DNA from: Thiohalospira halophila DSM 15071
Lineage (GTDB): Bacteria; Pseudomonadota; Gammaproteobacteria; Thiohalospirales; Thiohalospiraceae
NCBI RefSeq assembly: GCF_900112605.1
Contig: NZ_FOMJ01000004.1
Span: 124,001-188,000, forward strand
Direction: 5' to 3'
DNA length: 64,000 bases
The position numbers and the translations under genes were made by a program. The first letter of the stretch is position 1. The number at the start of each line of letters is the position of its first letter. Positions 49,343-64,000 of the stretch are shown here, piece after piece. The notes beneath the pieces were generated by a model. The model did no database searches, was not told the DNA's origin, and was given only the letters and a program-made list of their open reading frames with translations.

Positions 49343-50593
49343 TCACCGGTCGTCGGCGGTGGCGCGCAGGGCCTCTACGACGGCGGCGACGGCGCCGGCG
49401 TGGGGGGCGGCGACGGCCTGGGCGGCCTGGCCCATGGTCTGGCGGCGCTCCTTGTCCGCCAGCAGGGTGGCCGCCCCCTCTTCCAGGTAGTCGCGGCCGC
49501 CCACCACCAGTAGGGCGCCGGCGTCGTGCAATGCGGCCGCCGCCGGGGTGATGGCGGCGAGGCTGCGCCCGGAGATGAGGGCCCGGCCGGCGGCCGCCGC
49601 CGGGGCGGGGTTGTTACCGCCGTGGTGGAGGCTGCCGCCGATGAAGACCAGGTCGGCGGTGTGGCAGGCCAGGGGCCAGTCGTGGGGGCGGTCCTCCAGG
49701 TAGACGTCGGTGTCGATGCGCGGCTCGCCCCCCTTGCTGCGGTGGTAGACGCGGTAGCCGGCGTCCGTGGCCGGGGCGACGGCCTCCTCCGCCCGGCCGG
49801 GGTCGCGCGGGGCCAGGGCCAGCAGGAGGTTGTGCCAGCGCCCGCGCAGGCTCTGAAAGACCTCGAAGACCGCCTTCTCCTCCCCCGGCTCGGTGGCCAG
49901 GGCCAGCCACACCGGCCGGGCCGGGCCCCAGGTCTCGCGCAGCTCGTCCCCCTTCTGGGCCTGCTGGGTGGTGGGCGCCGGGGCGTCCAGGCGCAGGTCG
50001 CCGATGACCCGCGCCTCGCCCCCGGGGGCGAGGTCGGCGAAGGCCTCGGCGGTCTCGCCGTCGGCCACCCAGACGCCGCCGCTCTCGGCCAGGGCGGCGC
50101 GCAGGGCGCGGCGGCGCCGGGGCGGCGGGTCGTCGGGGTCGATGATGAGTGGGGCGAGGCCGGCATCGGCGGCAGCGAAGAGGAGTTCGGACCGGTTGGG
50201 CAGGCCGGCGAAGAGGGCGGCCAGGGGATCGGCCCGGCGGAGGAAGCGGCGGACCGGGCCGGGGTCGTCATCCGGGGCGAGGACGGCAGCGCCCTCCTCC
50301 TCGTCCTCGAAGAGGGCCTCGGCGCGGGCGACGGCGGCCGGCTCGCCGGTGGTAACCAGGAAGGTTGCGCCCCGCTCCGCCTCGCGCAGGGCGCGGATGA
50401 CCGGCTCCACCAGCCCCAGGTCGCCGGCCTCCTCGGCGTGGAACCAGTAGGGCTGCTCGGGCAGGTCGGCCACCAGACCCAGCCGCTGGCGGGCGTCGGC
50501 GCGATGGCCCCCGCGGGCCAGCCCCGCCAGGTGGCAGAGCAGGCGGAAGGGCCGGCCCGGCATGCGGACGAGATGGTGCCACCAGCGGATCAT
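49343..50593 (-). CDS. Degenerate WaaA (KDO transferase)-like paralogue
   Basis: A 416-residue protein that aligns end to end with the WaaA encoded just upstream, but lacks its key motifs. WaaA WVHAASVGE becomes WFHAEEAGD, replacing the Glu reported as catalytic base; IVEMELWPN is replaced by ALFAGLPNRSE; and GGQNVLEPAA becomes GGNNPAPAAA. The N-terminal TM anchor is also missing, being replaced by a basic RWWHHLVRM segment. It is the third gene in a heptosyltransferase-waaA-paralogue operon and overlaps waaA by 4 bases (ATGA). It may be a glycosyltransferase with altered chemistry or a non-catalytic partner. Confidence 0.8.
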   Translation of the reverse strand: MIRWWHHLVRMPGRPFRLLCHLAGLARGGHRADARQRLGLVADLPEQPYWFHAEEAGDLGLVEPVIRALREAERGATFLVTTGEPAAVARAEALFEDEEEGAAVLAPDDDPGPVRRFLRRADPLAALFAGLPNRSELLFAAADAGLAPLIIDPDDPPPRRRRALRAALAESGGVWVADGETAEAFADLAPGGEARVIGDLRLDAPAPTTQQAQKGDELRETWGPARPVWLALATEPGEEKAVFEVFQSLRGRWHNLLLALAPRDPGRAEEAVAPATDAGYRVYHRSKGGEPRIDTDVYLEDRPHDWPLACHTADLVFIGGSLHHGGNNPAPAAAAGRALISGRSLAAITPAAAALHDAGALLVVGGRDYLEEGAATLLADKERRQTMGQAAQAVAAPHAGAVAAVVEALRATADDR

Positions 50594-51888
50594 CCTCCCT
50601 CCTCCCGGGGTGCGGCCCCGGTTTTCAGTATTGCGGCCACCTGTGCCGCCAGACGCTGGGTCGCCCCGCGATGGGCGGCCACCAGCTCGGCCCCGGCGGC
50701 GCCCATGGCCGCCCGGCTTTCAGGGTCGGTCAGCAGCTCGGTTACCGTCCGCCCAAGGGCGTCGGCATCGGCGACCTCCGTCAGGGCGCCGGCGGCCTCC
50801 AGTCCTCGAGTGATGGTAGCGAAGTTGTAGCGCGATGGCCCGGTGATTACCGCCCGGCCCACCGCCGCCGGCTCCAGGACGTTCTGCCCGCCCAGGGGGA
50901 CCAGGCTGCCGCCGACGAAGGCGAGATCCGCCGCGGCGTAGAGCAGCGGCAGTTCGCCCAGGGTATCGGCCAGGTAGACCGGCTGGTCGGCGTCCGGGAC
51001 CTCGCCCCGGCTGCGGCGGGCCGGTTCGCCGGTGTGATCACGGATGAGGTCGGCTACCTCGTCGAAGCGCTGGGGGTGACGCGGGGCCAGCAGCAGCAGG
51101 GCGTCGGGGTGGGTCCGGCGGACGGTCGCGTGGGCGGCCAGGATCGATTCCTCCTCCCCCTCCCGGGTGCTGGCGGCGATCCAGGCCGGGCGCGCCCCCA
51201 GGGAGGCGCGGAGTTCGGCCCCGCGCTCGGCCAGGTCGGCCGGCAGCGCCAGGTCGAACTTGAGATTGCCGGCGACCTCCACGCGCCCGGCGGGGGCCCC
51301 CAGTTCGGTGAGCCGTGAGGCGTCGTCCTCGGCCTGGGCGAGGATCCGTGTCGGCGTGGCCAGCACCGGGGCGATGAGCCGGCGCAGGCGGGCGTAGCGG
51401 CGGGCGCTCCGCGCCGACATTCGCGCGTTGGCCAGGAGGACGGGGATCTCCCGCCGCCGCAGGGCGGCGAAGAGGTTGGGCCAGAGCTCCATCTCCACGA
51501 TGACCGCCAGCCGGGGGCGGGCCCGATCCAGGAAGCGGGCGACGGCGCCGGGGCAATCCAGGGGGAGGTAGGTCTGACGGTCTTCCGGGCGCAGGAGGCC
51601 GGCGGCCTGCTCCGCCCCGGCGGGGGTGGTGGTGGTCAGCAGCAGCGGGGTGTCGGGGTGGTCGGTCTGCAGTTGCCGGATGAGGGGGGCGATGGCGCGG
51701 ACCTCGCCCACCGAGGCGGCGTGGACCCAGAGGGGCGGGGTCTGTGTTCGCGCGCTTGGTGGCAGCCAGCCCAGCCGCTGGCCCCAGCCGCGGCGGTAGG
51801 CCGGCTCGCGGAGGCCGCGCCGGGCCAGGTGGGCGAAGATCAGGGGCAGCGCCAGCCCCAGCAGGGCGGTGTAGAGCGCCCGCATCAT
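50590..51888 (-). CDS. waaA: 3-deoxy-D-manno-octulosonic acid (KDO) transferase
   Basis: A 432-residue inner-membrane-associated GT-B enzyme that adds KDO to lipid A. The TM anchor at residues 1-22 is followed by LWVHAASVGEV (catalytic Glu), VIVEMELWPNLFAALRRREI, ARMSARSARRY and GGSLVPLGGQNVLEPAAVG near the CMP-KDO site. The length agrees with the family. The ATG overlaps the upstream heptosyltransferase stop (ATGA), and its own stop overlaps the paralogue gene. Part of LPS inner-core assembly. Confidence 0.95.
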   Translation of the reverse strand: MMRALYTALLGLALPLIFAHLARRGLREPAYRRGWGQRLGWLPPSARTQTPPLWVHAASVGEVRAIAPLIRQLQTDHPDTPLLLTTTTPAGAEQAAGLLRPEDRQTYLPLDCPGAVARFLDRARPRLAVIVEMELWPNLFAALRRREIPVLLANARMSARSARRYARLRRLIAPVLATPTRILAQAEDDASRLTELGAPAGRVEVAGNLKFDLALPADLAERGAELRASLGARPAWIAASTREGEEESILAAHATVRRTHPDALLLLAPRHPQRFDEVADLIRDHTGEPARRSRGEVPDADQPVYLADTLGELPLLYAAADLAFVGGSLVPLGGQNVLEPAAVGRAVITGPSRYNFATITRGLEAAGALTEVADADALGRTVTELLTDPESRAAMGAAGAELVAAHRGATQRLAAQVAAILKTGAAPREEGG

Positions 51889-52988
51889 GGCTGCGGCGGC
51901 GCCAGCCGCTGGTCGGCCGGGGTGGCCAGGAGTTCGTCCAGCCGGCCGGTAACGTCGGCCACGGTGATGAGATCCATGGCGGCGGGGTCGCGCACGCGCT
52001 GACCCCAGGCCACCTCGTCCACCCCCTTGCCCAGGGTCCGCTGGAGGGCGTCGGGGTAGCGGTTCACCACCCAGCGGCGGCTGAGGTAGGGCCCGGTGCG
52101 ATCGGGGTTGCTGGTGGCGTAGAGGCCGATGACCGGGGTGCCGGCGGCGGTGGCCATGTGGGCCGGGCCGGAATCGGGGCAGAGGACGGCGTCGGCCCGG
52201 CCCAGCAGGCCCAGGAGCTCCTTGAGATCGGTGGCACCGATGAGGTCGGTGACCGGGGCATCCGCCAGCCGGGTGATGGCCTCGGCGTAGCGGCGCTCCT
52301 CCTCCGTGGGGCCGCCGGTGAGGACCGTCTGCAGGCCGTGGGCGCGGTGGGCGTGCTCGGCCACGGCGGCGTAGGCCTCCGGCGACCAGTTGCGGAAGTT
52401 GTTGATCCGCTGGCTGGAGCAGGGGCTGATCACCAGCGCCGGGCGGTCGTCGGGGATGACCCGGGCGGCCCGCTCGGCCGCCGGCTCGGGGACCGGGATG
52501 TCCCAGACCAGGTGGCGCTCCTCCACACCCAGGGCGCGGAGGAAGTCGAAGAAGCCCTCCAGCACGTGGGTGCGGGGGTTGGGGGCGATGCGCCGGTTGA
52601 TGAAGGCGCCGTGGCCGTCGCGGCTGCGGGCCCGGTCGAAGCCCAGGCGCAGCGGGGTGCGCACGGCGGTGGAGAGGCCGCCGGCGCGCAGGGCCACCTG
52701 CATGAGTGCCAGGGCGTCGAAGCGCCGGTCGGCCAGCTGGCGGCGCAGGGCGCGGTAGCCGGCCAGGCCGCTGCCCTTCTTGAAGGGCACCATCTCCACG
52801 CCGTCGAGATCGCCGAGGAGCTTCGCCTCGGTCCCGCCGATGACCCAGGTCAGCCGCGTCTGCGGCCACGCCCGCTGCAGGGTGCGCACCATCGGCACCA
52901 TGTGGGTGGTGTCGCCGATGGCGGAGAGCCGCAGGAGGCAGAGGGATTCCGGCGGTTCGGTGAAAAGCGGCGGGGTCTCGGCGGTCAT
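51885..52988 (-). CDS. GT9 heptosyltransferase
   Basis: A 367-residue cytoplasmic enzyme of the ADP-heptose:LPS heptosyltransferase family. LCLLRLSAIGDTTHMVPMVR at the N-terminus, ALVISPCSSQRINNFRNWS in the middle and DAVLCPDSGPAHMATAAGTP near the C-terminus are the GT9 signatures; it is closest in feel to heptosyltransferase I, but I or II cannot be settled by eye. First gene of the leftward LPS operon, divergent from kdkA 72 bases away. Confidence 0.93.
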   Translation of the reverse strand: MTAETPPLFTEPPESLCLLRLSAIGDTTHMVPMVRTLQRAWPQTRLTWVIGGTEAKLLGDLDGVEMVPFKKGSGLAGYRALRRQLADRRFDALALMQVALRAGGLSTAVRTPLRLGFDRARSRDGHGAFINRRIAPNPRTHVLEGFFDFLRALGVEERHLVWDIPVPEPAAERAARVIPDDRPALVISPCSSQRINNFRNWSPEAYAAVAEHAHRAHGLQTVLTGGPTEEERRYAEAITRLADAPVTDLIGATDLKELLGLLGRADAVLCPDSGPAHMATAAGTPVIGLYATSNPDRTGPYLSRRWVVNRYPDALQRTLGKGVDEVAWGQRVRDPAAMDLITVADVTGRLDELLATPADQRLAPPQP

Positions 52989-53060: not shown

Positions 53061-53864
53061 ATGCAGATCCAGGCAAGCGACGACGAGATCTACCAGCGCG
53101 ACCCGGTTCGGGATCGGGAGGGGGAGGGCGACGGGGTCATCCTCCACGATGGCCGGCTGGGTGCGGTCTTTCCCGCCGAACTCTTCCGCCCGGAGGCCGC
53201 GGCCATCCAGGGCGGCGGTACGGGGCGGGGCGAGGCGGTCTTCCTCTCGGCCACCCGGAAGACGGAGGCCGGCGAGGAGGAGGTGGCGCTGGTCCTGCGC
53301 CATTTCCGCCGGGGCGGCCTGCTGGGCCGGATGCTCGGGGATCGTTATATCCGCAACGGGTTGGCGCGTAGCCGCCCGGTGCGGGAGTGGCGGCTCATGC
53401 GGGAGCTGCGTCGGCAGGGGCTGCCGGTGCCGGCGCCGGTGGCGGTGCGGGTGGCCCCGCGGGGGCTCATCTACCGCGGGGACCTCATCACCGAGCGCCT
53501 GGAGGGGGCCGTGCCGCTGGCCGATCTGCTGGAGGCCGGTAACGCCTCCCTGACGCTGTGGGAGTGGGTGGGGGCGACCATCGCCCGCTTCCACGCCGCC
53601 GGCGCCTGGCACGCCGATCTCAACGTCCGCAACATCCTGGTGGATGACGCCTCCGGGATCTGGCTCATCGACTGGGACCGGGGGCGGCTGGGCGTGCGCC
53701 GGGCCGGTCCCCTGCGGGCGAATCTCCGCCGGCTGCGCCGCTCCCTGGACAAGGAGGTGAAGAGCCATCCGGCGGGCAGCAATACCGCCCTGCTGGAGCG
53801 CTCCATCCACGAGGGGTGGCCGGCGCTGGAGCGCGGATACTATCGAGGGGCCGGCAATGGGTGA
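53061..53864 (+). CDS. kdkA: KDO kinase
   Basis: A 267-residue protein of the 3-deoxy-D-manno-octulosonic acid kinase family, which phosphorylates the KDO of LPS. Kinase-like elements: VALVLRHFRRGGLLGRMLGD, ITERLEGAVPLADLL, the catalytic loop WHADLNVRNILVDD and the Mg-binding WLIDWDRGRLG, ending with LRRSLDKEV. The length is slightly above the usual ~240. It is divergent from the heptosyltransferase/waaA operon and overlaps the following glycosyltransferase by 8 bases, linking LPS core with the sulfotransferase island. Confidence 0.93.
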   Translation: MQIQASDDEIYQRDPVRDREGEGDGVILHDGRLGAVFPAELFRPEAAAIQGGGTGRGEAVFLSATRKTEAGEEEVALVLRHFRRGGLLGRMLGDRYIRNGLARSRPVREWRLMRELRRQGLPVPAPVAVRVAPRGLIYRGDLITERLEGAVPLADLLEAGNASLTLWEWVGATIARFHAAGAWHADLNVRNILVDDASGIWLIDWDRGRLGVRRAGPLRANLRRLRRSLDKEVKSHPAGSNTALLERSIHEGWPALERGYYRGAGNG

Positions 53865-55008
53865 GCCATCGACGGCGCGCCCCCGGGTCGCGGTGCTCAT
53901 CGCCTACACCGGCGATGGCGGCGTGGAGAAGATGGTCAACAACCTCCTGCGCGGCTTCGTGGATGCCGGGGTGACCGTGGACCTGCTCCTCCTCAAGGCG
54001 CGTGGAGGTCATGTGGCGGGGATCCCGCCGGAGGTGAATACCCACTATCTCAACGCCCGCACCTCCCTGCTCGCCCTGCCGGCGGTGGTCCGCTACCTGC
54101 GCCGGGTGCGGCCGGATGCCCTGCTGGCGGCCAAGGACCGCGCCGCCCGGGTGGCGCTGCGCGCCCGGCGCTGGGCGGGGGTGGCGACCCGCGTGGTCCC
54201 GCGCATGGGCATGCACCTCTCCGGCTCCCTGGCGGACAAGTCGGCCCTGCGGCGCTGGTCGCGCTTTCGGCCGGTGCGCCGGCTCTATCCCGAGGCCGAC
54301 GCCATCGTCGCCGTGGCCGGGCCGGTGGTCGACGACCTGGCCGCCATCGGCGGGATCCCGCGGGAGCGCTTCGCCGTCATCGCCAACCCCACGGTGACCC
54401 CGGAGCTGGCGGCCCGGAGCCGGGAGCCGGTGGACCATCCCTGGATGGGGTCTGGCCTCGGAACGGAGCGGGACCGGCCGGTGATCGTCGCCGTGGGCCG
54501 CCTCAAGGGGCAGAAGGACTTCCCCACCCTGCTGCGCGCCTTCGCCGCGCTCAAGCGGCCGGCGCGGCTCATCATCCTGGGCGAGGGGCCGGATCGCGAG
54601 GCGCTGGAGCGGCTGCGCGGTGAGCTGGGGCTCACCGACTCCGTGGACCTGCCCGGCTTCACCGACAATCCCTACGCCTGGATGCGGGCGGCGGACCTGT
54701 TCGTCCTCTCCTCCCGCTACGAGGGCTCCCCCAACGTGCTGGTGGAGGCCATGGCGGTGGGCACGCCGGTGGTGGCCACCGACTGCCCCAGCGGGCCGCG
54801 GGTTCTGCTGCGCGGTGGTGAGCTGGGGCCGCTGGTGCCGGTGGGCGACAGCGATGCGCTGGCGGCGGCCATGGATCGGGTCCTGGCGGCGCCGCCGGAC
54901 GGCGAGGCGCTCAAGGCGGCGGTGGCCGACCACACCGTGGCCGAGAGCAGCCGGCGCTACCTGGACACCCTGCTGGGCCGCGATGCCCCGCCGGCTGGCG
55001 GCTGCTAG
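53857..55008 (+). CDS. GT4-family glycosyltransferase
   Basis: A 383-residue retaining GT-B glycosyltransferase. The N-terminal domain opens with VAVLIAYTGDGGVEKMVNNL; the C-terminal GT4 domain has VAVGRLKGQKDFPTLLRAFA, LIILGEGPDREALERL and the nucleotide-sugar motif SSRYEGSPNVLVEAMAVGTP with the EX7E glutamates. It is coupled to kdkA by an 8-base overlap. A paralogue lies at 58309-59406; both share the arrangement of motifs. Product sugar unknown, likely LPS core or surface glycan. Confidence 0.93.
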   Translation: MGEPSTARPRVAVLIAYTGDGGVEKMVNNLLRGFVDAGVTVDLLLLKARGGHVAGIPPEVNTHYLNARTSLLALPAVVRYLRRVRPDALLAAKDRAARVALRARRWAGVATRVVPRMGMHLSGSLADKSALRRWSRFRPVRRLYPEADAIVAVAGPVVDDLAAIGGIPRERFAVIANPTVTPELAARSREPVDHPWMGSGLGTERDRPVIVAVGRLKGQKDFPTLLRAFAALKRPARLIILGEGPDREALERLRGELGLTDSVDLPGFTDNPYAWMRAADLFVLSSRYEGSPNVLVEAMAVGTPVVATDCPSGPRVLLRGGELGPLVPVGDSDALAAAMDRVLAAPPDGEALKAAVADHTVAESSRRYLDTLLGRDAPPAGGC

Positions 55009-55038
55009 AATGGCGCCTCGCTGACAGGGTCCGTCCGC

Positions 55039-55710
55039 ATGCTCATCTCCTATTCGCACAACTTCCTCTTCGTTCACATCGCCAAGACCGGCGGGACCAG
55101 CGTGCGCGCGGCCCTGCGCCGCTATCGCTGGGGCGGCTGGTACTCCCTCCCGCTATGGCTGGCCGCCCAGGTGGACCAGATCACCCGGCCGAGGCACAAG
55201 CTGGGGCTGAAGTTCCCCCGCCACGGCAAGGCCATCGCGGCGAAGGAGATGCTGCCGGAGCCGGTCTACCAGGGCTTTTTCAAGTTCACCATCGTGCGCA
55301 ATCCCTGGGACCTGCAGGTGAGCTCCTGGCACCACATCCGCCGGGAGAAGCCCCACGTGCTGGCGGGCATCGACACCTTCGCCGACTTCCTGCGCTACAA
55401 GTTCGACCCCGAGCGCGACTACGACTACATGCTCGATATCTCTGCCGAGCGGCAGCACGAATACCTGGTGGACCTGAACGGGGAGGTCATCGTCGACTAC
55501 ATCGGCCGCTACGAGCGCCTGGGCGACGACTTCGCCGAGATCTGCCAGCGGATCGGGATCCGGCAGCCAGAGCTGCCCCACCTGCGCCGCGCCACCGAGC
55601 GCGAGGACTACCGCGCCTACTACACCGACGAACTGGCGGAGCGGGTGGCGGAGCACTACCGGCGGGATATCGAGATCCTGGGCTACACCTTTGACGGGGG
55701 AGCGGCATGA
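55039..55710 (+). CDS. Sulfotransferase family 2-type protein
   Basis: A 223-residue protein of the family including carbohydrate sulfotransferases. The 5'-phosphosulfate loop is HIAKTGGTSVRAALRRY with FLFVHIAK upstream, and the 3'-phosphate motif is FTIVRNPWDLQVSSW. It ends in EILGYTF, the common C-terminus of this group. It would transfer sulfate from PAPS to a hydroxyl of a glycan. It is coupled to the next sulfotransferase-like gene by ATGA. Confidence 0.88.
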   Translation: MLISYSHNFLFVHIAKTGGTSVRAALRRYRWGGWYSLPLWLAAQVDQITRPRHKLGLKFPRHGKAIAAKEMLPEPVYQGFFKFTIVRNPWDLQVSSWHHIRREKPHVLAGIDTFADFLRYKFDPERDYDYMLDISAERQHEYLVDLNGEVIVDYIGRYERLGDDFAEICQRIGIRQPELPHLRRATEREDYRAYYTDELAERVAEHYRRDIEILGYTFDGGAA

Positions 55711-56699
55711 ATACCGGGCGACCCAAGGTCCTGCTGCACATCGGTCTGCACAAGACCGGGACGCGCTTCCTGCAGCGGGAGGTCTTCGGCCAGCTCGACC
55801 CGGCCGAGTTCAACGTAAACCCCGAGCCGCTCTGGCCGGCGGTGCGCCAGGCGGTCCGCCATCCCGACGACCCGGAGCGGGTGGAGGCCGCCCGGCAGGC
55901 GGTGGCCGAGTGGCGGGCCTCCGGCGACGACCGGACCCTGGTGATCTCCGAGCCCCACATCTCCGGGGACATGTACGGCAGCCACCACGACTACGCCGAC
56001 AACCTGGCGCTGATGCGGGAGTTCTTCCCCGAGGCGCGGGCGATGTTCTTCGTCCGCAAGCAGTCGGACTGGCTGCAGTCGGCCTACCGCCAGCACCTGG
56101 CCAAGGGCAGGCCGGTGCCCATTGAGGTCTTCCTGAACTTCTACGACGGCGAATTCCGTTCCCGGCTGGGGCGGGAGGTCTATGGGGCCCGCAACGTGGA
56201 GGCGCTGACCCTGCGCTTTCTGGCGATCTATCGCGCCTGGGCGGAGGCCTACGGCGAGGAGAGCGTCTACCTGCTGCGCCAGGAGGACCTGCGCCGGCGC
56301 CCGGCGGCGGTGAAGGCGCTCATCGCCCGCGCCCTGGGGCTGGAGGCGCTACCGGAGCCGCCGAAGGAGCGCGGCCACAACCGCAGCTACTCCGCCCTGG
56401 CCATCCACCTCTTCCACCCCACCGTGCTGCGCCACTACCCGGCGCCGGGGCCCGAGGACGTCCACGGCCGGCGGATCCCCCAGTGGCTCAACGACCTGCT
56501 GGGCCCCTTCCGCCGCATCCGCCGGAGTCTCATCCAGCACGCCTTCGACAAGGTGGTCTACAAGGACTGGGATCTCCTCGCCCGCCACGGCATGCGCGCG
56601 AGGATCGAGGACCACTACGCCGAGGAGAATGCCGAGCTGGAGCGGATCGCGCATCAGCAGCTGGCGGCGGTGGTCGGTAAGGCGTCGCCGGGCGGATAA
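55707..56699 (+). CDS. Sulfotransferase-fold protein
   Basis: A 330-residue protein. VLLHIGLHKTGTRFLQREVF at residues 7-26 is the PAPS loop type GxxKTGT, and EARAMFFVRKQSDWLQSAYR resembles the 3'-phosphate-binding Arg-Ser segment. The C-terminal half is helical and basic. It overlaps the preceding sulfotransferase by 4 bases. Sulfotransferase activity is likely but the acceptor is unknown. Confidence 0.82.
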   Translation: MNTGRPKVLLHIGLHKTGTRFLQREVFGQLDPAEFNVNPEPLWPAVRQAVRHPDDPERVEAARQAVAEWRASGDDRTLVISEPHISGDMYGSHHDYADNLALMREFFPEARAMFFVRKQSDWLQSAYRQHLAKGRPVPIEVFLNFYDGEFRSRLGREVYGARNVEALTLRFLAIYRAWAEAYGEESVYLLRQEDLRRRPAAVKALIARALGLEALPEPPKERGHNRSYSALAIHLFHPTVLRHYPAPGPEDVHGRRIPQWLNDLLGPFRRIRRSLIQHAFDKVVYKDWDLLARHGMRARIEDHYAEENAELERIAHQQLAAVVGKASPGG

Positions 56700-56707
56700 C
56701 CGCCGGC

Positions 56708-57571
56708 TCAGTATCCCTGCTCTGCCAGGGCCGCGGCGTGGCCGTCGGCGAAGCTGGCCAGCGCCGGGTCGCCGCGATGGGCGAAGGCGCGGGAGGGATC
56801 GAAGCGCGCCGCCTGCTCCCGCAGGGCGGCATCCCCCACCTCCAGGCCACAGAAGTCGACGATCCGCCGTAGACCCGGTTCCGGGTCGGCCAGCAGGTCC
56901 TCGTAGCGCAGCTCCAGGGCCTGCTCGCCCATCTCGGCCACATGGGCCCGCGCCCGAGCGGTATAGGCCGCCCAGAGGTCCAGTCCCCCCTCCAGCGTCC
57001 CTACCGACGGGGAGTGGCCGAAGCCGCCGCGCTTGGGTGCCAGCGGATTGTTCACGTAGCTCCGGCGCCGACGGCGGTAGCGGTGGATGGAGGCGGCCAC
57101 CGCCCGCTCCCGCCGCACCCGCAGGCTCTCGGCGACATCCACGCCGTGGCGGGTAATATGTAACACCCGCAGATCCGGGAAGACCGCGCGCCACAGCGGC
57201 AGCGTGTAGGTGGTGCGCGGGTCCTTGAAGCCCCAGGGCTCGGCGATGCGGTGCATGGAGCGATAGCGCAGGAAGCGTTGGAGGCCCAGATAGCGGGCCG
57301 CGGCCGGACCGTCGGTAACGCCGGCCAGGTAGTCGACGACCCAGGGGCGGACCTCGTCATCCGCCAGCAGGGCGTCGATCCCCTCCGGCCGCTCCCAGGT
57401 GGCGCTGGCCTGGCCGAAGACCCAGTAGTTGAGCCGATTGGTGAAGCGGCACTCCTCGTTGCGCGTCGTCCCCCGCCCCATCCAGAGACCGAAGCCCTGC
57501 AGGGTGCGGGTGAGCATGCTGGTGCCGGAGCGGTGCATACCGATGAGGAGGATGGGGGGGCGTGGGGTCAT
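56708..57571 (-). CDS. Sulfotransferase_3-type protein
   Basis: A 287-residue protein with PAPS loop ILLIGMHRSGTSMLTRTLQG near residues 7-26, an HITRHGVDVAESLRVR segment for the 3'-phosphate, and WGFKDPRTTYTLPLWRAVF in the middle. ATG 57571 gives a clean start; the in-frame upstream extension is rejected. It is transcribed against the two preceding genes. It represents a third subfamily of sulfotransferase in this island. Confidence 0.85.
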   Translation of the reverse strand: MTPRPPILLIGMHRSGTSMLTRTLQGFGLWMGRGTTRNEECRFTNRLNYWVFGQASATWERPEGIDALLADDEVRPWVVDYLAGVTDGPAAARYLGLQRFLRYRSMHRIAEPWGFKDPRTTYTLPLWRAVFPDLRVLHITRHGVDVAESLRVRRERAVAASIHRYRRRRRSYVNNPLAPKRGGFGHSPSVGTLEGGLDLWAAYTARARAHVAEMGEQALELRYEDLLADPEPGLRRIVDFCGLEVGDAALREQAARFDPSRAFAHRGDPALASFADGHAAALAEQGY

Positions 57572-57681
57572 GGGTACCTGGGTATGGTGTCGGCAGCAGG
57601 AGGGTAGCACGGCCGCGGGGTGGCGCGGATGTAACGCGTTTGTCATACTTACCGCTCAGTCAGTATATGGGGATCGGCCGC

Positions 57682-58290
57682 ATGGAACGCCTCCTGTTGA
57701 ACCTCGACCCCGCGTCCATCACTGAATACATCTCCATCCGGACGCCGGTGGAGAAGGCCCGTTTCAACCTGAGCGGCCTCTTCCTGCCCCAGCCGGTTCG
57801 GCGGGGGAGCTGGGATCGGCAAACCTACCCCATGGAGGACCACCCCACCTTCCGCCTCATCCGCCGGCTCTACGAGAGTGATTACGACCTGCCGACGGGG
57901 ATGGTGGCACTGGAGCAGTACTTCGGGGAACGTGGCCTTTCACCGCTGAAGGCTCGGGACAAGGCCGAGCGCAAGGGTGCGGAAATCCTCTGGCGCTACG
58001 CCGAGCTGGCGAGAGGCATGGCCGACACCGGTTACCAGCCCGGGCTGGCCCGGGACGAGATCGGCGTGGCCATTGCTCGCGACGGGACGCTCCTCAAGGC
58101 TCCCGGGGGCCAGCACCGGTTTGCCGTCGCCCGGATGCTCGGGTTGGACTGCGTGACGGCCGAGGTCCGCTACATCCATCGAGCCTGGCAGCGTGCCTGC
58201 AAGGGCGCCGATCTCGAGAGCCTGCGCACCTGCACCCGGGAACAGATCCCGATGTATTACCCCTCCTGTGAGCCAACGGAAAAAGCCTGA
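57682..58290 (+). CDS. ParB-like nuclease-fold protein of unknown function
   Basis: A 202-residue cytoplasmic protein. The central IGVAIARDGTLLKAPGGQHR and FAVARMLGLDCVTAEVRYIH match the ParB/sulfiredoxin-like fold (I-x-V-DG-x-H-R). Neither partner ParA nor a plasmid context exists. ATG 57682 is preferred because GGGGA precedes it, though ATG 57667 is possible. Its position between sulfotransferase and glycosyltransferase genes suggests a role in the surface-glycan pathway, possibly as a kinase or nucleotide-binding enzyme rather than a DNA-binding factor. Confidence 0.65.
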   Translation: MERLLLNLDPASITEYISIRTPVEKARFNLSGLFLPQPVRRGSWDRQTYPMEDHPTFRLIRRLYESDYDLPTGMVALEQYFGERGLSPLKARDKAERKGAEILWRYAELARGMADTGYQPGLARDEIGVAIARDGTLLKAPGGQHRFAVARMLGLDCVTAEVRYIHRAWQRACKGADLESLRTCTREQIPMYYPSCEPTEKA

Positions 58291-58308
58291 GCAGTTCCCT
58301 CCGGGCGT

Positions 58309-59406
58309 CTAGCCCAGTGCGGCGAGATAGGCCGTTGCCGAATGGCCTGCGCGGAATGGTTCCGCCGCGGCACGCAGGGCTCCCGCCGTTGGAGGCTGGC
58401 TCAGAGCCTGCTCCAGTCCCGCTGCAATGCCCGCCTCATCGCCCATCGCGATCAGGGGGCCGATAGCACCGCCCTGAAGGATTTCGCCCGGCCCTACCGG
58501 GCAGTCGGTGGCTACCACCGGGGTGCCGCACGCCAGGGCCTCGACGAGCACGGCCCCGGAGCCTTCCCGGAGCGAGGTCAGGGCGAAGGCATCGGCGCGA
58601 CTCATCCAGCGGTAGGGGTTGGCCTCGAAGCCCGGGAGCCGGACGTCGTCACTGATCCCGAGCTCGGCTGCCAGTGCCTCCAGCCGACCGCGCTCCCGGC
58701 CCTCGCCCAGGATCACGAGCCGGGCCGGGCGCTGCTGGCGGAGGCGGGCGAAGGCGCGGATCAGCGTCGCGAAGTCCTTGCGCGGCTCCAGGGAGCCGGC
58801 GCCCAGGATGACCGGCGGACCCTCGTCGGTGAACCAGGGGTCGTCCAGGGGCTCTCTGGCCTGCTCCAGGAAGGAGTCGGTGACGATGGGGTTGGGGATG
58901 ACGTGCAGCCGCTCTCGCGGGACGCCGGCCAGCTCGTGGAGCTCCCGGCCAAGCCCCTCCGAGGGGCAGATCACGGCGTCGGCCCGGGGATACCAGAACC
59001 GCATGGACCGGATGAGTCGCCGCCCCTTGCGCGGTCCCAGGATCTCCTGCTGTCCGGTGAGGGTCATGCCCATGCGGATGGCGACCCGCGTCGGCACGCG
59101 CGCCAGCCAGCGCGCCTGGAGAGCGGCGCGGTTGAGCCGATGGCTGGCGGTGAGCAGGGCTGCCGGCTGTTCCCGCCGGAGGTAGCCGACCAGGCCGGGG
59201 AGGACCGTGTTGCGATGGGCCGCCGGGAGGCGAATGTCCCGGGCATTGGACGGTAGCTTCTCCAGGTACGGCCCGTGCCCCTTGATCCGGAGGAGATCGA
59301 ATTCGTGAGCCGTTCGGCCGAATTCCGGGAGCAGATTCGCCACGATCCGATCCACGCCGCTGTGGCCGGAGGTGGCGAAGAGGAGGGCCAGGCGGTTGCG
59401 GCTCAC
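58309..59406 (-). CDS. GT4-family glycosyltransferase (paralogue)
   Basis: A 365-residue GT-B retaining glycosyltransferase, similar in layout to the one at 53857-55008: LALLFATSGHSGVDRIVANL, LGAGSLEPRKDFATLIRAF, LVILGEGRERGRLEALAAEL and the EX7E motif region LTSLREGSGAVLVEALACGT. A GTG start overlaps the upstream sulfotransferase stop (GTGA). Probably adds a sugar to the same glycan. Confidence 0.92.
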   Translation of the reverse strand: MSRNRLALLFATSGHSGVDRIVANLLPEFGRTAHEFDLLRIKGHGPYLEKLPSNARDIRLPAAHRNTVLPGLVGYLRREQPAALLTASHRLNRAALQARWLARVPTRVAIRMGMTLTGQQEILGPRKGRRLIRSMRFWYPRADAVICPSEGLGRELHELAGVPRERLHVIPNPIVTDSFLEQAREPLDDPWFTDEGPPVILGAGSLEPRKDFATLIRAFARLRQQRPARLVILGEGRERGRLEALAAELGISDDVRLPGFEANPYRWMSRADAFALTSLREGSGAVLVEALACGTPVVATDCPVGPGEILQGGAIGPLIAMGDEAGIAAGLEQALSQPPTAGALRAAAEPFRAGHSATAYLAALG

Positions 59407-60290
59407 GATGCCGATTCGTCGGTGTAGCCGAGGTAGCGCTGATAGAAGGGGTCGAGCCGTTCGTTGATGACCCGCTCGACGTGGGCGAGGTTCTCGCCCT
59501 GGAGGTAGTCTCGATAGCCGCCGACCTCGCCCTTGCGCGTCTTGAAGCTCTCCGGGTCACTGGTGTCCCGTGCGGCCAGGCGGCTGGTGCCCAGGGCGTT
59601 GCTGGCCTCGAGCTTGCGCATGTTGTTGAAGTCGCAGAACTCCACGGCCTCCTGAATGACGGAATCGGAGACGCCGTGGATGCCGAGGAACTCCAGGGCC
59701 GCCCGCAGCCCGCCGGCGGTGTCGGCCTTGAGATCCTCATAGGCGACCAGGTGGAACCCGGAGGGGACCTCCCGATTCGCGGCCCAGATGTTGTAGAAGG
59801 TCACGATGGTCTCGATGCCGCCCCGGCGCTGATGGACGAACTCGTCCATGGAGCCGGAGAAGTTCGCGTTGCGCCGGGTGTTCTGGAAGTAGGAAGAGAC
59901 CAGCACGTCACGCGGGTCGCGGACCATGAACAGGACCTTGCGACCGGCGTACTCCGACTTGTCCCGGGGCAGCTCCTCCGGCTCGCAGAACTCCGGTCCG
60001 CCGTCGTGATGCTGTAGAATAAAGGGCACATCTCGCCAGGGACGGACGAATTGCCGGAGCTTCATGGGATTCCGTACACGCTTGCCCAGGTGCCCCTCCA
60101 GCGCCTTGCCGATGAGCATGACCAGCCAGGTCCGACCGCACTTCGGGTACGAGATCAGGTGTGCCCCGGCCCGCCACTTGCGCCAGCGGCGGCGAGCAAG
60201 CTGGACGGCGCGGCGGACGGGACCGCGGCGGCGAACAATCGCAGTCACAAAGGAGAATCCAGTTGCAATTACCAATGGGTATTGAATCAT
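59403..60290 (-). CDS. Sulfotransferase_1-type protein
   Basis: A 295-residue protein with PAPS loop HLISYPKCGRTWLVMLIGKA (the YPKxGxTW form of the cytosolic-type family), the 3'-phosphate segment VLFMVRDPRDVLVSSYFQNT and the late KGEVGGYRDYL, matching the RKGxxGDW-like C-terminal motif. The N-terminal 35 residues are basic and slightly hydrophobic. It is coupled by 4 bases to the GT4 gene. The start, ATG 60290, has no good ribosome site. GC content is still high here and drops just upstream. Confidence 0.9.
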   Translation of the reverse strand: MIQYPLVIATGFSFVTAIVRRRGPVRRAVQLARRRWRKWRAGAHLISYPKCGRTWLVMLIGKALEGHLGKRVRNPMKLRQFVRPWRDVPFILQHHDGGPEFCEPEELPRDKSEYAGRKVLFMVRDPRDVLVSSYFQNTRRNANFSGSMDEFVHQRRGGIETIVTFYNIWAANREVPSGFHLVAYEDLKADTAGGLRAALEFLGIHGVSDSVIQEAVEFCDFNNMRKLEASNALGTSRLAARDTSDPESFKTRKGEVGGYRDYLQGENLAHVERVINERLDPFYQRYLGYTDESAS

Positions 60291-60396
60291 ATGATAACGA
60301 GCTATGCGAGAGCTTTCTGATTAGCTCAGAACGATTTAGTGTCAATCCGTGAGCACACGCTTGATGCTTCCGGTAACATTACACAAAAAGGGCGCC

Positions 60397-61125
60397 ATGA
60401 TTGTATCGCATCGGAACAGATTCATCTTCCTGAAAACGAGAAAGACTGCGGGTAGTAGCACCGAGATCGCTCTTTCCCGTCTCTGCGACACCAACGACAT
60501 TGTAACCCCCTTGATAGAAAAGCGGGGAGAAGAAGAGTTAAGGAAGGCAGAGGGCGGGTATGGGCCAGTCAACGCTTTAAAAAAACCTCTCCAGCATTAT
60601 GGGCGCAAAGAGTGGCAACGTCTTCTCCTTAAGGCGCAACGAGCCCCTTGGAAAACTCATAGTCGCCCCCACCACATCCGTAGAGGGATAGGCAAGAAAA
60701 AGTGGGATCAGTATTTGAAGGTCACCATAGAGCGAAATCCTTGGGATAGGGCTATATCTAGATATTACTGGATGAAAGCAAGGGCACTCGAAGCCGGAGA
60801 AAAAGAGTTCCCTTCAATCACGAATTTCCTGCTGAAACTCGAGAAAGAAAAGCCTGCCCTTTTGTCGAATTGGGGTTTGTATACAATAAAAGATACAGTT
60901 ATTGCGGATAAAGTAATTTTTTACGAAAGCCTTAACGAGGGGCTTTCGGATCTTGAACGTTGCCTTGGTCTTTCGGAAGGCTTGTTGAGTCTCCCGAGCG
61001 TGCACGCTAAAAGTGGCTTCAGAGAAGATAAGCGGCCGTACCAGGAGGTGCTTTCCGAAATTGACAGAGAGATCATCGCGCGTGTCTGTAGGAATGAGAT
61101 AGAGGCGTTTGGCTATACTTTCTAA
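60397..61125 (+). CDS. Sulfotransferase family 2-type protein, low GC
   Basis: A 242-residue protein. MIVSHRNRFIFLKTRKTAGS with SSTEIALSRL supplies the PAPS loop KTRKTAGSS; LKVTIERNPWDRAISRYYWM is the 3'-phosphate motif; the end EIEAFGYTF is the same type of terminus as the sulfotransferase at 55039. ATG 60397 has AAGGG upstream and gives the family start; upstream codons to 60349 are extra. Base composition is much lower in GC than the genes to the left, pointing to transfer. Confidence 0.88.
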   Translation: MIVSHRNRFIFLKTRKTAGSSTEIALSRLCDTNDIVTPLIEKRGEEELRKAEGGYGPVNALKKPLQHYGRKEWQRLLLKAQRAPWKTHSRPHHIRRGIGKKKWDQYLKVTIERNPWDRAISRYYWMKARALEAGEKEFPSITNFLLKLEKEKPALLSNWGLYTIKDTVIADKVIFYESLNEGLSDLERCLGLSEGLLSLPSVHAKSGFREDKRPYQEVLSEIDREIIARVCRNEIEAFGYTF

Positions 61126-61212
61126 TATATTTAGGCGAGGTTGTTAAACTGGGGACTGCTCTCTCAGGACTCGACGTTTTAAAGGTAAGACCTCATTTGG
61201 TCAGGAGTTATT

Positions 61213-62121
61213 ATGCGAGTGTTTGTTTTTTCTTACAATAGAGGGCAATACCTCAAAAACTGCATCCAATCTCTTTGGCGGCATATGCCTAACTACCCGA
61301 TAACAATCGTTGATGATGGAAGTACAGATCCTGAAGTGATAGAAACGCTTGACTGTGTCCGCGGGTACGCAGACGTGATCGTAAACGATAGAGAGGAGAA
61401 GTCTTATCTAGGTGGCCTATACAATAATATGCAGTTCGCCCTAGATTCATCCGTAAATTGCGACCTCGCCCTTTTTATTCAAGACGACCAACAAATTGTG
61501 CGGCCCATTGAGCGTTTTGACGAAAAACATTGGGACGATTACTTTTCGCGTAATCCGACTGCTCATGAGCTAGGTACAACCTTCCTAAAACGAGGGTCGA
61601 AGGCTGATTCCGATGGGATAACTATTGACTGTGCAACGGGAGTTTACTTTCGAGATCCACGCGTGAGCAAACGAGCCTATTTCACGGCTACGGGGATTTT
61701 TAATGTGGCCCGCATGCGAAAAGTCAGCTGGCGATTTGGGGCTACCGAAGGTGAGAACAATCTTAAAGCACACGACGAAAAGTTCTCGTTGGGTTTTTCA
61801 GCATATCCTTTTATGATGTGGTTGCCGAACGCGAAGAGTTCTAAGTTTCAGCGAAAAGGGCATCTTCATGCTCTCGCAGAGTGGTATCGCTGCTCTGGCT
61901 TTTATCCGTACCGAGACATGACGTCTGACGAGGTCAATTGGTTAAAATATAGATCTATAGAAAAATTGCCCTATGCGCAAGATATATTGCATCCTTTAGG
62001 TCTAAAACCAAATCAGGACTGGCTTTTTGAAGACGCAACTAAATCGATCCGTTGGATCCATAGGCGATTGAAAAAAAGAAAGAAGAAAATGGCGCGAAAT
62101 CAAGCCCTGAATAGAGAGTAG
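61213..62121 (+). CDS. GT2-like glycosyltransferase (copy 1), low GC
   Basis: A 302-residue inverting GT-A glycosyltransferase-like protein. MRVFVFSYNRGQYLKNCIQS, ITIVDDGSTDPEVIETL and ALFIQDDQQIVRP (DxD-like DD) show the GT2 start; the second half has FSAYPFMMWLPNAKSSKFQR and WYRCSGFYPYRDMTSDEV. AGGAG precedes the ATG. A clear paralogue lies at 62876-63790 with the same length and motif positions. AT-richer than the rest of the window. Confidence 0.87.
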   Translation: MRVFVFSYNRGQYLKNCIQSLWRHMPNYPITIVDDGSTDPEVIETLDCVRGYADVIVNDREEKSYLGGLYNNMQFALDSSVNCDLALFIQDDQQIVRPIERFDEKHWDDYFSRNPTAHELGTTFLKRGSKADSDGITIDCATGVYFRDPRVSKRAYFTATGIFNVARMRKVSWRFGATEGENNLKAHDEKFSLGFSAYPFMMWLPNAKSSKFQRKGHLHALAEWYRCSGFYPYRDMTSDEVNWLKYRSIEKLPYAQDILHPLGLKPNQDWLFEDATKSIRWIHRRLKKRKKKMARNQALNRE

Positions 62122-62189
62122 GCGATCCTGGGTTTTGTTCGAGATGCTCCTGCGTTCGCAGCAGATAGTCTGGTGTTGGTCAACGGCAT
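62122..62189. other. Intergenic stretch before the IS481 relic
   Basis: Sixty-eight bases between the glycosyltransferase stop and the possible left end of the IS481 relic. I see no promoter, hairpin or coding potential here. Confidence 0.5.
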
Positions 62190-62776
62190 TGAGGGACCCG
62201 GTTACGCGGAGTAGGTAATTGGCGGGTCCGGAGTGATTCCGTGGTTTTTGATAAAGAAGATCAGGCCGCTCGGCATACGAGCTGTCCATCGCTTGGAAGT
62301 GCCTCCACGGCCGCTGGCGCTTGGTTTCGGTGGGCATGATCGAAATCCCGTGGCGCTTGAGCAGCCGATGGACTGCCGAGCGGGAGGCGTTCTCGTTGAG
62401 GAACTCCCGGGTGACGGCGAGCATGTCCTCCAGGGCGAGCCACAGGGTCCGGCGCAGGCCCACCACCACCGCCTCCTGCTCCGGCGTCAGGGCTGTGCGC
62501 AGTCGGTGGGCGGTATGCGAGCCGTCTTCGGTGGTCTCTCACTTACGCCAGCGGCGGATGGTGTCCTCGGAGACGCCGAACTTCCGGGGCAGCTCCCGGA
62601 TCGGTTTGTCCGAAGCCTCTATGGCCGCTCGTCGGCCCGGCGTGGTGGCCGTGTTCTTTGCAAGCGAATGTCCATCAGGCCCGTCTCCGTCGCTGGCAAC
62701 GATGTCTCGCATCACGGCGCGACTGGTGAACAGTGCCTGGCGTCGGCGGGTCAATGCAATCATCGGGGACCTGACA
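62190..62776 (-). mobile_element. Internally deleted IS481-family insertion-sequence relic
   Basis: High-GC DNA with IS481 transposase remnants lies inside AT-richer glycan genes. Its possible ends are TGAGGGACCCGG (from 62190) and TGTCAGGTCCCCGA (complement, ending at 62776), imperfect inverted repeats. Only about 590 bases remain, against roughly 1 kb or more for a complete element, and the catalytic DDE part is missing. No target-site duplication was evident. The exact ends are tentative; family identity rests on the pseudogene. Confidence 0.5.
62280..62675 (-). pseudogene. IS481-type transposase fragment, frameshifted, with in-frame stop and truncated
   Basis: ATG 62675 begins MDIRLQRTR in one frame, while the next part, TTPGRRAAIEASDKPIRELP with RKFGVSEDTIRRWRK, is in another frame, so a frameshift lies near the start. 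A TGA (complement of 62539-62541) then interrupts the frame; reading through gives HTAHRLRTALTPEQEAVVVG and FLNENASRSAVHRLLKRHGI, the usual IS481 N-terminal helix-turn-helix region. After TETKRQRPWRHFQAM the sequence loses similarity, so the DDE catalytic core is gone. Three independent lesions make this clearly non-functional. Confidence 0.82.
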
Positions 62777-62875
62777 ATTACATCGCAACATTTTGAGCGG
62801 TAGGCGAAGCAATGTCGCACTTGAGGCAAGCTTTTTAGAATGTAATGCTAACGAAATTATTGGAGGTTAATTGAG
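62777..62875. other. Gap before the second glycosyltransferase, with its ribosome site
   Basis: An AT-rich 99-base stretch between the IS relic and the next glycosyltransferase; it ends in TGGAGG at good spacing to the ATG at 62876. No clear promoter can be defined. Confidence 0.4.
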
Positions 62876-63790
62876 ATGTTAGAAATATTTTTGTTCTCGT
62901 ACAATCGCGGCAAGTACCTGAAAAACTGCCTAGATTCAATAAAGAAGCATGCCCCTAACCTGAAGGTAACAATCTTCGATGACGGCAGTAGCGATCCGGA
63001 AACACAGGACGCGCTCGCGGAGTATAGTGAAGCGTACCAAGTGGTTGTTACAGACAAAGTGAATAATGGCCACTACGTTGGTGGGCTTTATGATAACATG
63101 AATAAGGCATTAGCTAGTGCGCAAGAAGAGTTCGCGTTATTCATTCAAGAAGACATGCAGCTCGTCAGAGATGTTAACGAGCAAGATATCGAACACGTGA
63201 AGAGGTTTTTTGATAAGTATCCGGATTCTATCGAGCTACATAATGCCTTTCTAAAAGGTCGCCAAAGGGCGAAGGACGGCGAAGTCCTTGAGATTGACGA
63301 AAATGGGCCATTTTATTTTCGCGCGCCTGGCGGTAAAGGCTCTGTTAATTTTTCCGCCGTTGGTGTGATAAACGTGGGTCGATTAAAACGAGATTCGTTT
63401 GAATTTCGTCCCTTTGAGGCGCAAAATGACGAAATCATTGGCCAGCAGTATACCAGAATGGGTATCACGCCATACCCTTGGATGATGTGGCTGCCCTTTT
63501 CTGAGACGTCGAAGTTCAAGAGGAAGGGGATTTTGCAGAGGTATGCCGAATGGAAGACGGCAGCGGGTTTTTATCCATACCGTCCAATGACTTCCGCGGA
63601 AGTGGAAAACCTCTTGTCGCGAGGCCCTGAGGAGTTCCCTTACGCAGAGGACTGGTTAAGCCCTCAAGGATTAGAGGGGCGGTCTGTGTGGAATTTTTCA
63701 GATGCTGCGAAGTTTGTTCCTTTTACCAAAAAAGTCCTTAAGTTTAGAAAGAAGCTTGATAAAAGACGTAATTCTGTGACGAGGCATTAA
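62876..63790 (+). CDS. GT2-like glycosyltransferase (copy 2), low GC
   Basis: A 304-residue protein paralogous to the one at 61213-62121: MLEIFLFSYNRGKYLKNCLD, VTIFDDGSSDPETQDAL, FALFIQEDMQLVRDVNEQDI, and YPWMMWLPFSETSKFKRKG with AGFYPYRPMTSAEVE. The two share length and motif order throughout, so they arose by duplication or joint transfer, and are separated only by the IS481 relic. TGGAGG precedes the ATG. Four bases after its stop the next sulfotransferase-like gene begins. Confidence 0.88.
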   Translation: MLEIFLFSYNRGKYLKNCLDSIKKHAPNLKVTIFDDGSSDPETQDALAEYSEAYQVVVTDKVNNGHYVGGLYDNMNKALASAQEEFALFIQEDMQLVRDVNEQDIEHVKRFFDKYPDSIELHNAFLKGRQRAKDGEVLEIDENGPFYFRAPGGKGSVNFSAVGVINVGRLKRDSFEFRPFEAQNDEIIGQQYTRMGITPYPWMMWLPFSETSKFKRKGILQRYAEWKTAAGFYPYRPMTSAEVENLLSRGPEEFPYAEDWLSPQGLEGRSVWNFSDAAKFVPFTKKVLKFRKKLDKRRNSVTRH

Positions 63791-63794
63791 GAGT

Positions 63795-64000
63795 ATGAAT
63801 AATCCCAGCGACGGGGTTCTGACCCTCCATTTGGGGCTGCCAAAGACAGCGAGCACTTGGTTACAAAAATCGGTGTTCCCGGCGATGGGGGGTATAGATT
63901 ATTTGGGGCATATGAGTTGGAAATCTATTCGTATTCCGCCTCGTAACAGAAAGACGCGTTTAGACAAGATTTTTCGGATGCACCCTCGCGTTTGGGATAA
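63795..64000 (+). CDS. Sulfotransferase-fold protein, 5' part (cut by window end)
   Basis: The first 68 codons are in the window. GVLTLHLGLPKTASTWLQKS at residues 7-26 is a PAPS-loop variant (GLPKTASTW) similar to that of the protein at 55707. No stop is reached by base 64000. Low GC like its neighbours. Confidence 0.75.
   Translation, partial: MNNPSDGVLTLHLGLPKTASTWLQKSVFPAMGGIDYLGHMSWKSIRIPPRNRKTRLDKIFRMHPRVWD

Follow-up and report, generated by a model that had tools for sequence, protein, structure and literature searches.

Thiohalospira halophila DSM 15071 carries, between the Kdo (3-deoxy-D-manno-octulosonic acid) kinase gene kdkA and coq7, a gene island of approximately 15 kb that combines seven sulfotransferase (ST) genes with five glycosyltransferase (GT) genes (three GT4 and two GT2). 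The stretch of DNA analysed, hereafter the window, comprises 64,000 nucleotides (positions 124001–188000 of contig NZ_FOMJ01000004.1, here C4) of a 2.69 Mb genome assembled in 23 contigs, with a given completeness of 99.99%. The island is best read as a lipopolysaccharide (LPS)-core type locus for a predicted sulfated LPS outer core or core-linked oligosaccharide, with a probability of about 0.62. This reading is drawn from the core-type neighbours, a WaaL-type gene, the glycan-ST-like predicted fold of ST_B, and an enzyme supplying the sulfate donor 3'-phosphoadenosine 5'-phosphosulfate (PAPS) together with the lack of a detected reductase for PAPS or adenosine 5'-phosphosulfate (APS). Five whole ST genes and the start of a sixth lie inside the window, and the remainder and the seventh ST are found on the same contig, which runs 27.9 kb past the window. 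Positions in that same-contig stretch, L005, are converted to window positions by adding 56000, and the labels ST_A to ST_G and GT4a to GT4c were coined in this analysis. The genes are as follows.

49343..50593, minus strand: second KdtA/WaaA-type Kdo transferase-like protein (PF04413, 54.7 bits)
50590..51846, minus strand: WaaA Kdo transferase (PF04413, 224 bits)
51885..52988, minus strand: LPS heptosyltransferase, GT9 (PF01075, 149.9 bits; TIGR02193, 99 bits, below its cut-off)
53061..53864, plus strand: KdkA, Kdo kinase (NF002475, 213 bits, cut-off 142; PF06293, 127 bits)
53857..55008, plus strand: GT4a (PF13692, 123 bits)
55039..55710, plus strand: ST_A, Sulfotransfer_2 (PF03567, 52.0 bits; loop HIAKTGGTS)
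55707..56699, plus strand: ST_B, without a Pfam or NCBIfam match over cut-off (Pfam 17.0); loop GLHKTGTRF, predicted fold
56708..57574, minus strand: ST_C, Sulfotransfer_3 (PF13469, 77.9 bits; loop GMHRSGTSM)
57682..58290, plus strand: small ParB/sulfiredoxin-like protein, without a Pfam or NCBIfam match; weak structural resemblance to sulfiredoxin (Srx)/ParB
58309..59406, minus strand: GT4b (PF00534, 116.7 bits)
59403..60290, minus strand: ST_D, Sulfotransfer_1 (PF00685, 82.0 bits; loop YPKCGRTWL)
60394..61125, plus strand: ST_E, Sulfotransfer_2 (PF03567, 29.7 bits; loop KTRKTAGSS)
61213..62121, plus strand: GT2a (PF00535, 29.3 bits)
62220..62776, minus strand: internally deleted insertion-sequence copy between GT2a and GT2b (88.9% and 81.6% identity to L006:14826-15800, about 500 bp missing)
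62876..63790, plus strand: GT2b (PF00535, 41.7 bits)
63795..64000, plus strand: ST_F, 68 codons in the window, whole gene at L005:7795-8775 (motifs GLPKTASTW and VRRQDHWLAS)
L005:8789-10039: WaaL-type (O-antigen-ligase-like) Wzy_C protein (Wzy_C, 61.9 bits)
L005:10079-11269: third GT4, past the window
L005:11266-12075: ST_G, the seventh ST, past the window (PF13469, 52.8 bits)

Judged by their motifs, all seven STs are predicted to be PAPS-dependent sulfotransferases: the PAPS loop (5'-phosphosulfate, K/R) and the 3'-phosphate motif R..S are readable in 7/7. The six PAPS-loop motifs claimed by the initial annotation were all located, in genes from 55039 to 63795, and the two GT4 (53857 and 58309) and two GT2 (61213 and 62876) enzymes that it named have Pfam matches. 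Five of the seven STs exceed Pfam cut-offs, with domain scores too strong to be put down to chance, and ST_B is supported through its predicted fold, while ST_F, which is without a Pfam match, is recognized by its motifs and a weak similarity to ST_B homologs. Both PAPS motifs are preserved among homologs of ST_A, ST_B, ST_D, ST_E and ST_G; they are identical in all eight ST_A homologs, and the PAPS loop of ST_E is identical in 4/4. For ST_C, the motifs are preserved in two of three rows, the third being incomplete as aligned, with its gene aligning over residues 2-288, and no homologs of ST_F were found at the threshold of the motif comparison. In the 38-row ST_B alignment (40 of 45 loci handled, 37 kept at more than 200 aa), R117 is invariant and S125 is conserved in at least 90%, and the loop belonged to the search pattern. 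Against PDB sequences, ST_D matches sulfotransferases (best E 8e-13).

The predicted structure of ST_B resembles glycan STs. Its AlphaFold2 model, built from 38 sequences, has a predicted local distance difference test score (pLDDT) of 93.1; the first 29 Foldseek rows are all STs, as are 50/50 rows of the VIA comparison, which is headed by heparan sulfate N-deacetylase/N-sulfotransferase (NDST), heparan 3-O-sulfotransferases (3-OST) and 3rnl. Against these top rows, Z is 14.5-15.7 over 219-234 residues with a root mean square deviation (rmsd) of 3.4-4.1, whereas other STs reach Z of 12 at most. The model thus indicates that ST_B is a sulfotransferase nearest to oligosaccharide STs, alike in predicted fold to the heparan sulfate N- and 3-O-sulfotransferases, but bacterial and only 12-18% identical to them.

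ST_B-type genes occur in 13 of 369 genomes of the class, including this one, and are strong in 6 of them. A GTDB genome scan with the ST_B type returned 45 loci, ten of which share 45-77% identity; their labels are Halorhodospira neutriphila, Aquisalimonas, Thioalkalivibrio, Ectothiorhodospiraceae, Gammaproteobacteria or Proteobacteria. Among the named genomes, H. neutriphila matches best (77% for ST_B); its island also has seven STs, and in it ST_A, ST_B, ST_C, the ParB-like gene, GT4b and ST_D stand in identical order and strands. After ST_D, two different low-GC STs follow there (PF17784, 67.7 bits; PF03567, 90.6 bits), and next a weakly WaaL-like gene, GT4c types, ST_G and a GT4a, so that five STs are common to both islands and two are replaced. 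The dN/dS ratios against H. neutriphila, which cover the five common STs (ST_A 0.31, ST_B 0.38, ST_C 0.33, ST_D 0.27 and ST_G 0.48), show these to be under purifying selection. In more distant islands, the same ST and GT4 types recur in varying combinations together with a Wzy_C gene; several of these islands adjoin glnE or ilvE, and the L090 island ends at the heptose gene hldE. Outside this genome, eight of the 12 loci examined also have a WaaL-type Wzy_C gene (Pfam-tested in 7), and the same ST types stand with GT4 and Wzy_C genes in 9/13 loci.

The neighbours of the island have the composition of an LPS core (waa) locus, with Kdo transferase, heptosyltransferase, Kdo kinase and core-type GTs adjacent, and GT4b is similar to the solved LPS-core enzymes RfaG and LPS 1,6-galactosyltransferase, among other GT4s. 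The tandem Kdo-transferase-like genes at 49343-51846 include one much diverged copy, which may encode a second Kdo transferase or a related sugar transferase. Beyond the window, the rest of ST_F, the Wzy_C protein, the third GT4, ST_G and coq7 follow in order; coq7, at L005:12158, forms the right island border, and the chromosome beyond is ordinary-looking. The initial annotation had proposed looking past 64,000 for PAPS synthesis, polymerase and export genes; this extension yielded the ligase/polymerase-type gene, whereas PAPS synthesis was located on contig C1 and no export gene is seen up to coq7. Among the other members of the family, kdkA is present in 6/11, with a heptosyltransferase in those stretches and waaA in 5/6, and none of the ST types used as queries was found in these six kdkA stretches.

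The genome has one APS kinase, a 699-residue frame that forms a bifunctional Sat-CysC (NF004040, 947 bits, cut-off 669) at L054:6558-8657 (C1:211558-213657), the island being on C4. No PF01507 match (CysH or CysD) was found in this genome, and the same search finds one in 14/14 control genomes; in the relatives search, 33 of 56 genomes, this matchless one included, have a match. PAPS can therefore be made without a reductase of that family to consume it. H. neutriphila has two APS kinases, and its sole PF01507 match is CysD, so no CysH was found there; its PAPS cluster (L163:10890-18612) reads cysNC-cysD-anion permease-like-cysC-WecA-like-ilvE. This situation is not general: a PF01507 match exists in 7 of ten related ST_B genomes, and an APS kinase match in 8. 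In front of Sat-CysC lies a MarR_EPS-like part (TIGR04176, 78 bits, cut-off 88), which reads into the enzyme in one frame with no stop, and the Sat-CysC frames of most relatives are approximately 570-590 aa; a fusion of a MarR_EPS-like regulator to the enzyme is possible from the reading frame.

Gene-pair adjacency was assessed in 13 loci, namely the present island, L089, L090 and the ten top-ranking of the 45 GTDB-scan loci; L091, L092 and L093 were left out, as they share their contigs with L109, L110 and L112. Type-specific pairs number 23, against a shuffled mean of 8.8 (0/5000 shuffles), or 13 against 6.7 (14/5000) without the close relatives L104 and L108, with the reservation that shuffles ignore common descent and that pairs in L104, a stretch that stops before the H. 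neutriphila WaaL-like gene, are undercounted. GT4a immediately precedes ST_A in five of the six loci containing both, ST_D is followed by GT4b in 4/4 loci, and the ParB-like gene faces GT4b in 3/3. GT4a/ST_A and GT4b/ST_D are proposed as the firmest sugar-sulfate couples, and these pair results lead us to propose sulfation at several outer-core positions.

In the proposed route, Kdo transferase, heptosyltransferase and Kdo kinase would produce a phosphorylated inner core, to which the GT4 and GT2 enzymes would add sugars in the cytoplasm. The seven STs might then place sulfates at different positions of the oligosaccharide with PAPS from Sat-CysC, and the WaaL-type protein would join O-polysaccharide to the core, or polymerise a short chain, in the periplasm. 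What the analysis shows of this scheme is the genes, the predicted fold of ST_B, the motifs of all STs, the PAPS enzyme with no reductase found and the conservation in H. neutriphila; the acceptor, the number and place of the sulfates, the order of the steps and any role in salt are inferred. A bolder form of the scheme, which we regard as unlikely, pictures a polyanionic heparan-like LPS core with one ST for each of several positions, a portable and exchangeable gene set, a PAPS pathway without an assimilation role, and the ParB/Srx-like protein as an ATP-dependent glycan kinase or regulator.

Several observations weigh against a sulfated LPS core. The WaaL call is based on the Wzy_C match together with a match to the RfaL model of 27.5 bits, far under its cut-off of 277, and a comparison with PDB sequences gave only chance-level Cas1 matches; the Wzy_C family spans ligases and polymerases alike. 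The H. neutriphila island sits between glnE and folK, with no kdkA or waaA match in the stretches L104 and L164, so the tie to core genes is not fixed. The PAPS synthesis genes lie outside the island. Nor do GTs and STs pair up as a general rule: across the 13 loci, 18 same-strand neighbours were counted against a shuffled mean of 18.1 (2862/5000 shuffles reach 18), and a one-GT-one-ST rule was therefore dropped. Genome-wide, the ST total is not exceptional: 13 ST genes were counted (seven in the island, three in a cluster on C1 and single genes on C6, C10 and C13), PF13469 gives 8 rows, with 5 of 55 relatives higher (up to 13) and two tied, and PF03567 gives 3, the highest of 56 genomes. What is unusual is the local density, with 7 of the 13 in the island, and the number of STs that the initial annotation called unusual for a bacterium is to be understood in this sense. 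In addition, two further Wzy_C proteins are encoded elsewhere in the genome, and the C1 cluster (L008:1-11211; C1:236001-247211) has its three STs behind PseG, PseH and NeuB-family genes of a pseudaminic-acid-type locus, so sulfation is not confined to the island. This second cluster is approximately 31 kb from Sat-CysC, with an RfaH-type gene between them (L054:16806-17330). A surface-polysaccharide region at L100:1-20000 (C1:290001-310000) combines a Wzy_C protein with several GT4-like genes and gave no match to the ST queries.

The STs might instead act on the repeat of an O-polysaccharide, a short polymer assembled on a lipid carrier for which the Wzy_C protein would be the polymerase, with ligation elsewhere. 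Such a pathway would suit the polymerases in the Wzy_C family, the two other Wzy_C proteins as candidate ligases, and the STs of the pseudaminic-acid-type locus. Nevertheless, the stretch from kdkA to coq7 shows no gene for an initiating transferase, a flippase or a sugar nucleotide, and the first GT4 follows directly on kdkA, which leaves this explanation clearly less probable than sulfation of the core. Further down the scale, a sulfated capsule or exopolysaccharide is improbable: the capsule clusters of Vibrio KMM 8419 and Cobetia likewise combine GTs, STs and PAPS genes, but here the PAPS genes lie outside and a WaaL-type gene inside the island. No KpsMT/KpsE/KpsSC-type export or priming gene was noticed from kdkA to coq7, the only stretch inspected for them, which favours LPS over a capsule. 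Of the multiply sulfated LPS-attached or capsular glycan first suggested, the LPS-linked form is thus the better prediction; the halophile surface coat raised with it would suit some named relatives, Halorhodospira and Aquisalimonas.

Modification of lipids, peptides or small molecules by STs located here by accident is more doubtful still; among solved structures, the closest sequence matches of ST_D are cytosolic small-molecule STs of plants and animals, but the recurrence of the same ST types with GT4 and Wzy_C genes and the likeness of ST_B to glycan STs argue for a glycan target. The GC content is approximately 0.70 up to 60 kb, 0.45-0.56 over 60-67 kb and then approximately 0.68, and in view of this fall the right half of the island looks like a later import. 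A view of the island as decaying or strain-specific debris, with its low-GC half a functionless recent import, is hardly credible despite this GC drop and the broken insertion sequence, as all ST and GT frames of the island are open and ST_A to ST_D are constrained against H. neutriphila. An intact-looking relative of the broken insertion sequence lies at the contig end (L006:14826-15800), and the GT2 paralogs flanking the broken copy are diverged.

Enterobacterial LPS core (waa/rfa) loci have in common with the sulfated-core candidate the Kdo transferase, heptosyltransferase, kinase, GT4 enzymes and possibly the WaaL-type ligase, but STs make up a large share of the island; to our knowledge, classical waa/rfa loci are without such STs. 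Sinorhizobium meliloti has an LPS sulfotransferase gene, lpsS, whose product is likewise a PAPS-type ST acting on LPS, according to the accessible text of PMC12445080; there it is a single gene annotated as Stf0-family, in contrast with seven STs of different families inside a core-type locus. In the available sections on Vibrio sp. KMM 8419 (PMC11641403), the capsule cluster has three ST genes across a large locus with cysCND inside, and PAPS plus ST genes together are described as a hallmark; the capsule cluster of Cobetia marina KMM 1449 has PAPS genes, CysQ and a permease, as far as the excerpt of PMC11766843 goes. Like the present system, both bring GTs and STs together with a PAPS supply for the surface glycan of a marine bacterium, but they are capsule loci with ABC export, whereas the island packs its seven STs into 15 kb next to the LPS-core genes and the PAPS enzyme is encoded elsewhere. 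Six bacterial genera are reported as makers of sulfated polysaccharides in the accessible part of PMC11625862. The sulfate mentions in the available text of PMC4052302 concern a sponge compound and no bacterial LPS core, and that of PMC8877833, on family taxonomy, leaves sulfotransferases unmentioned and cites a 1992 LPS analysis including Ectothiorhodospira (now Halorhodospira) halophila. Literature searches on sulfated LPS, Halorhodospira with sulfotransferase, ParB with glycan genes and LPS core with sulfotransferase returned no title on the island, subscription journals being mostly uncovered.

Sulfated surface glycans are already known. If the sulfated core is real, a heavily sulfated LPS core would join the few known bacterial sulfated glycans, and a PAPS pathway would have been retained without the usual sulfate-assimilating reductase. 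Moreover, seven distinct STs, two of them beyond the reach of Pfam, would become candidates for oligosaccharide sulfation, and one could test if sulfate helps the outer membrane of Gram-negative bacteria to withstand strong brine.

The ParB-like protein proposed initially at 57682-58290 lacks a family match and has weak structural support. Its best model has a pLDDT of 81 and the other four 46-59; with this uncertain model, Foldseek gives E of 0.3 or worse (0.3-1.7 in the first 17 rows) and VIA gives Z of 2-5.5, the best being 5.5 over 85 residues with an rmsd of 4.6. The first 17 Foldseek rows and, with the exception of 2hwj, the first 22 rows of VIA are Srx, ParB, Noc, KorB, PadC, SbnI, Spo0J or serine kinase, and no match was found among the sequences of solved structures. 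Homologs occur in H. neutriphila (62%) and L111 (32%), and a weak partial match is present in only 4 other genomes of the 369 in the class. A viral origin was rejected, as none of 23 pattern matches in viral contigs was confirmed. The protein contains GGQHR, which we take to resemble the Srx motif GGCHR with the cysteine lost. The string GGCHR also occurs in PMC8071185. By analogy with the ParB/Srx fold, which in the accessible text of PMC12704722 serves both ATP-using enzymes (SerK and Srx) and CTP switches, it is possibly a glycan kinase.

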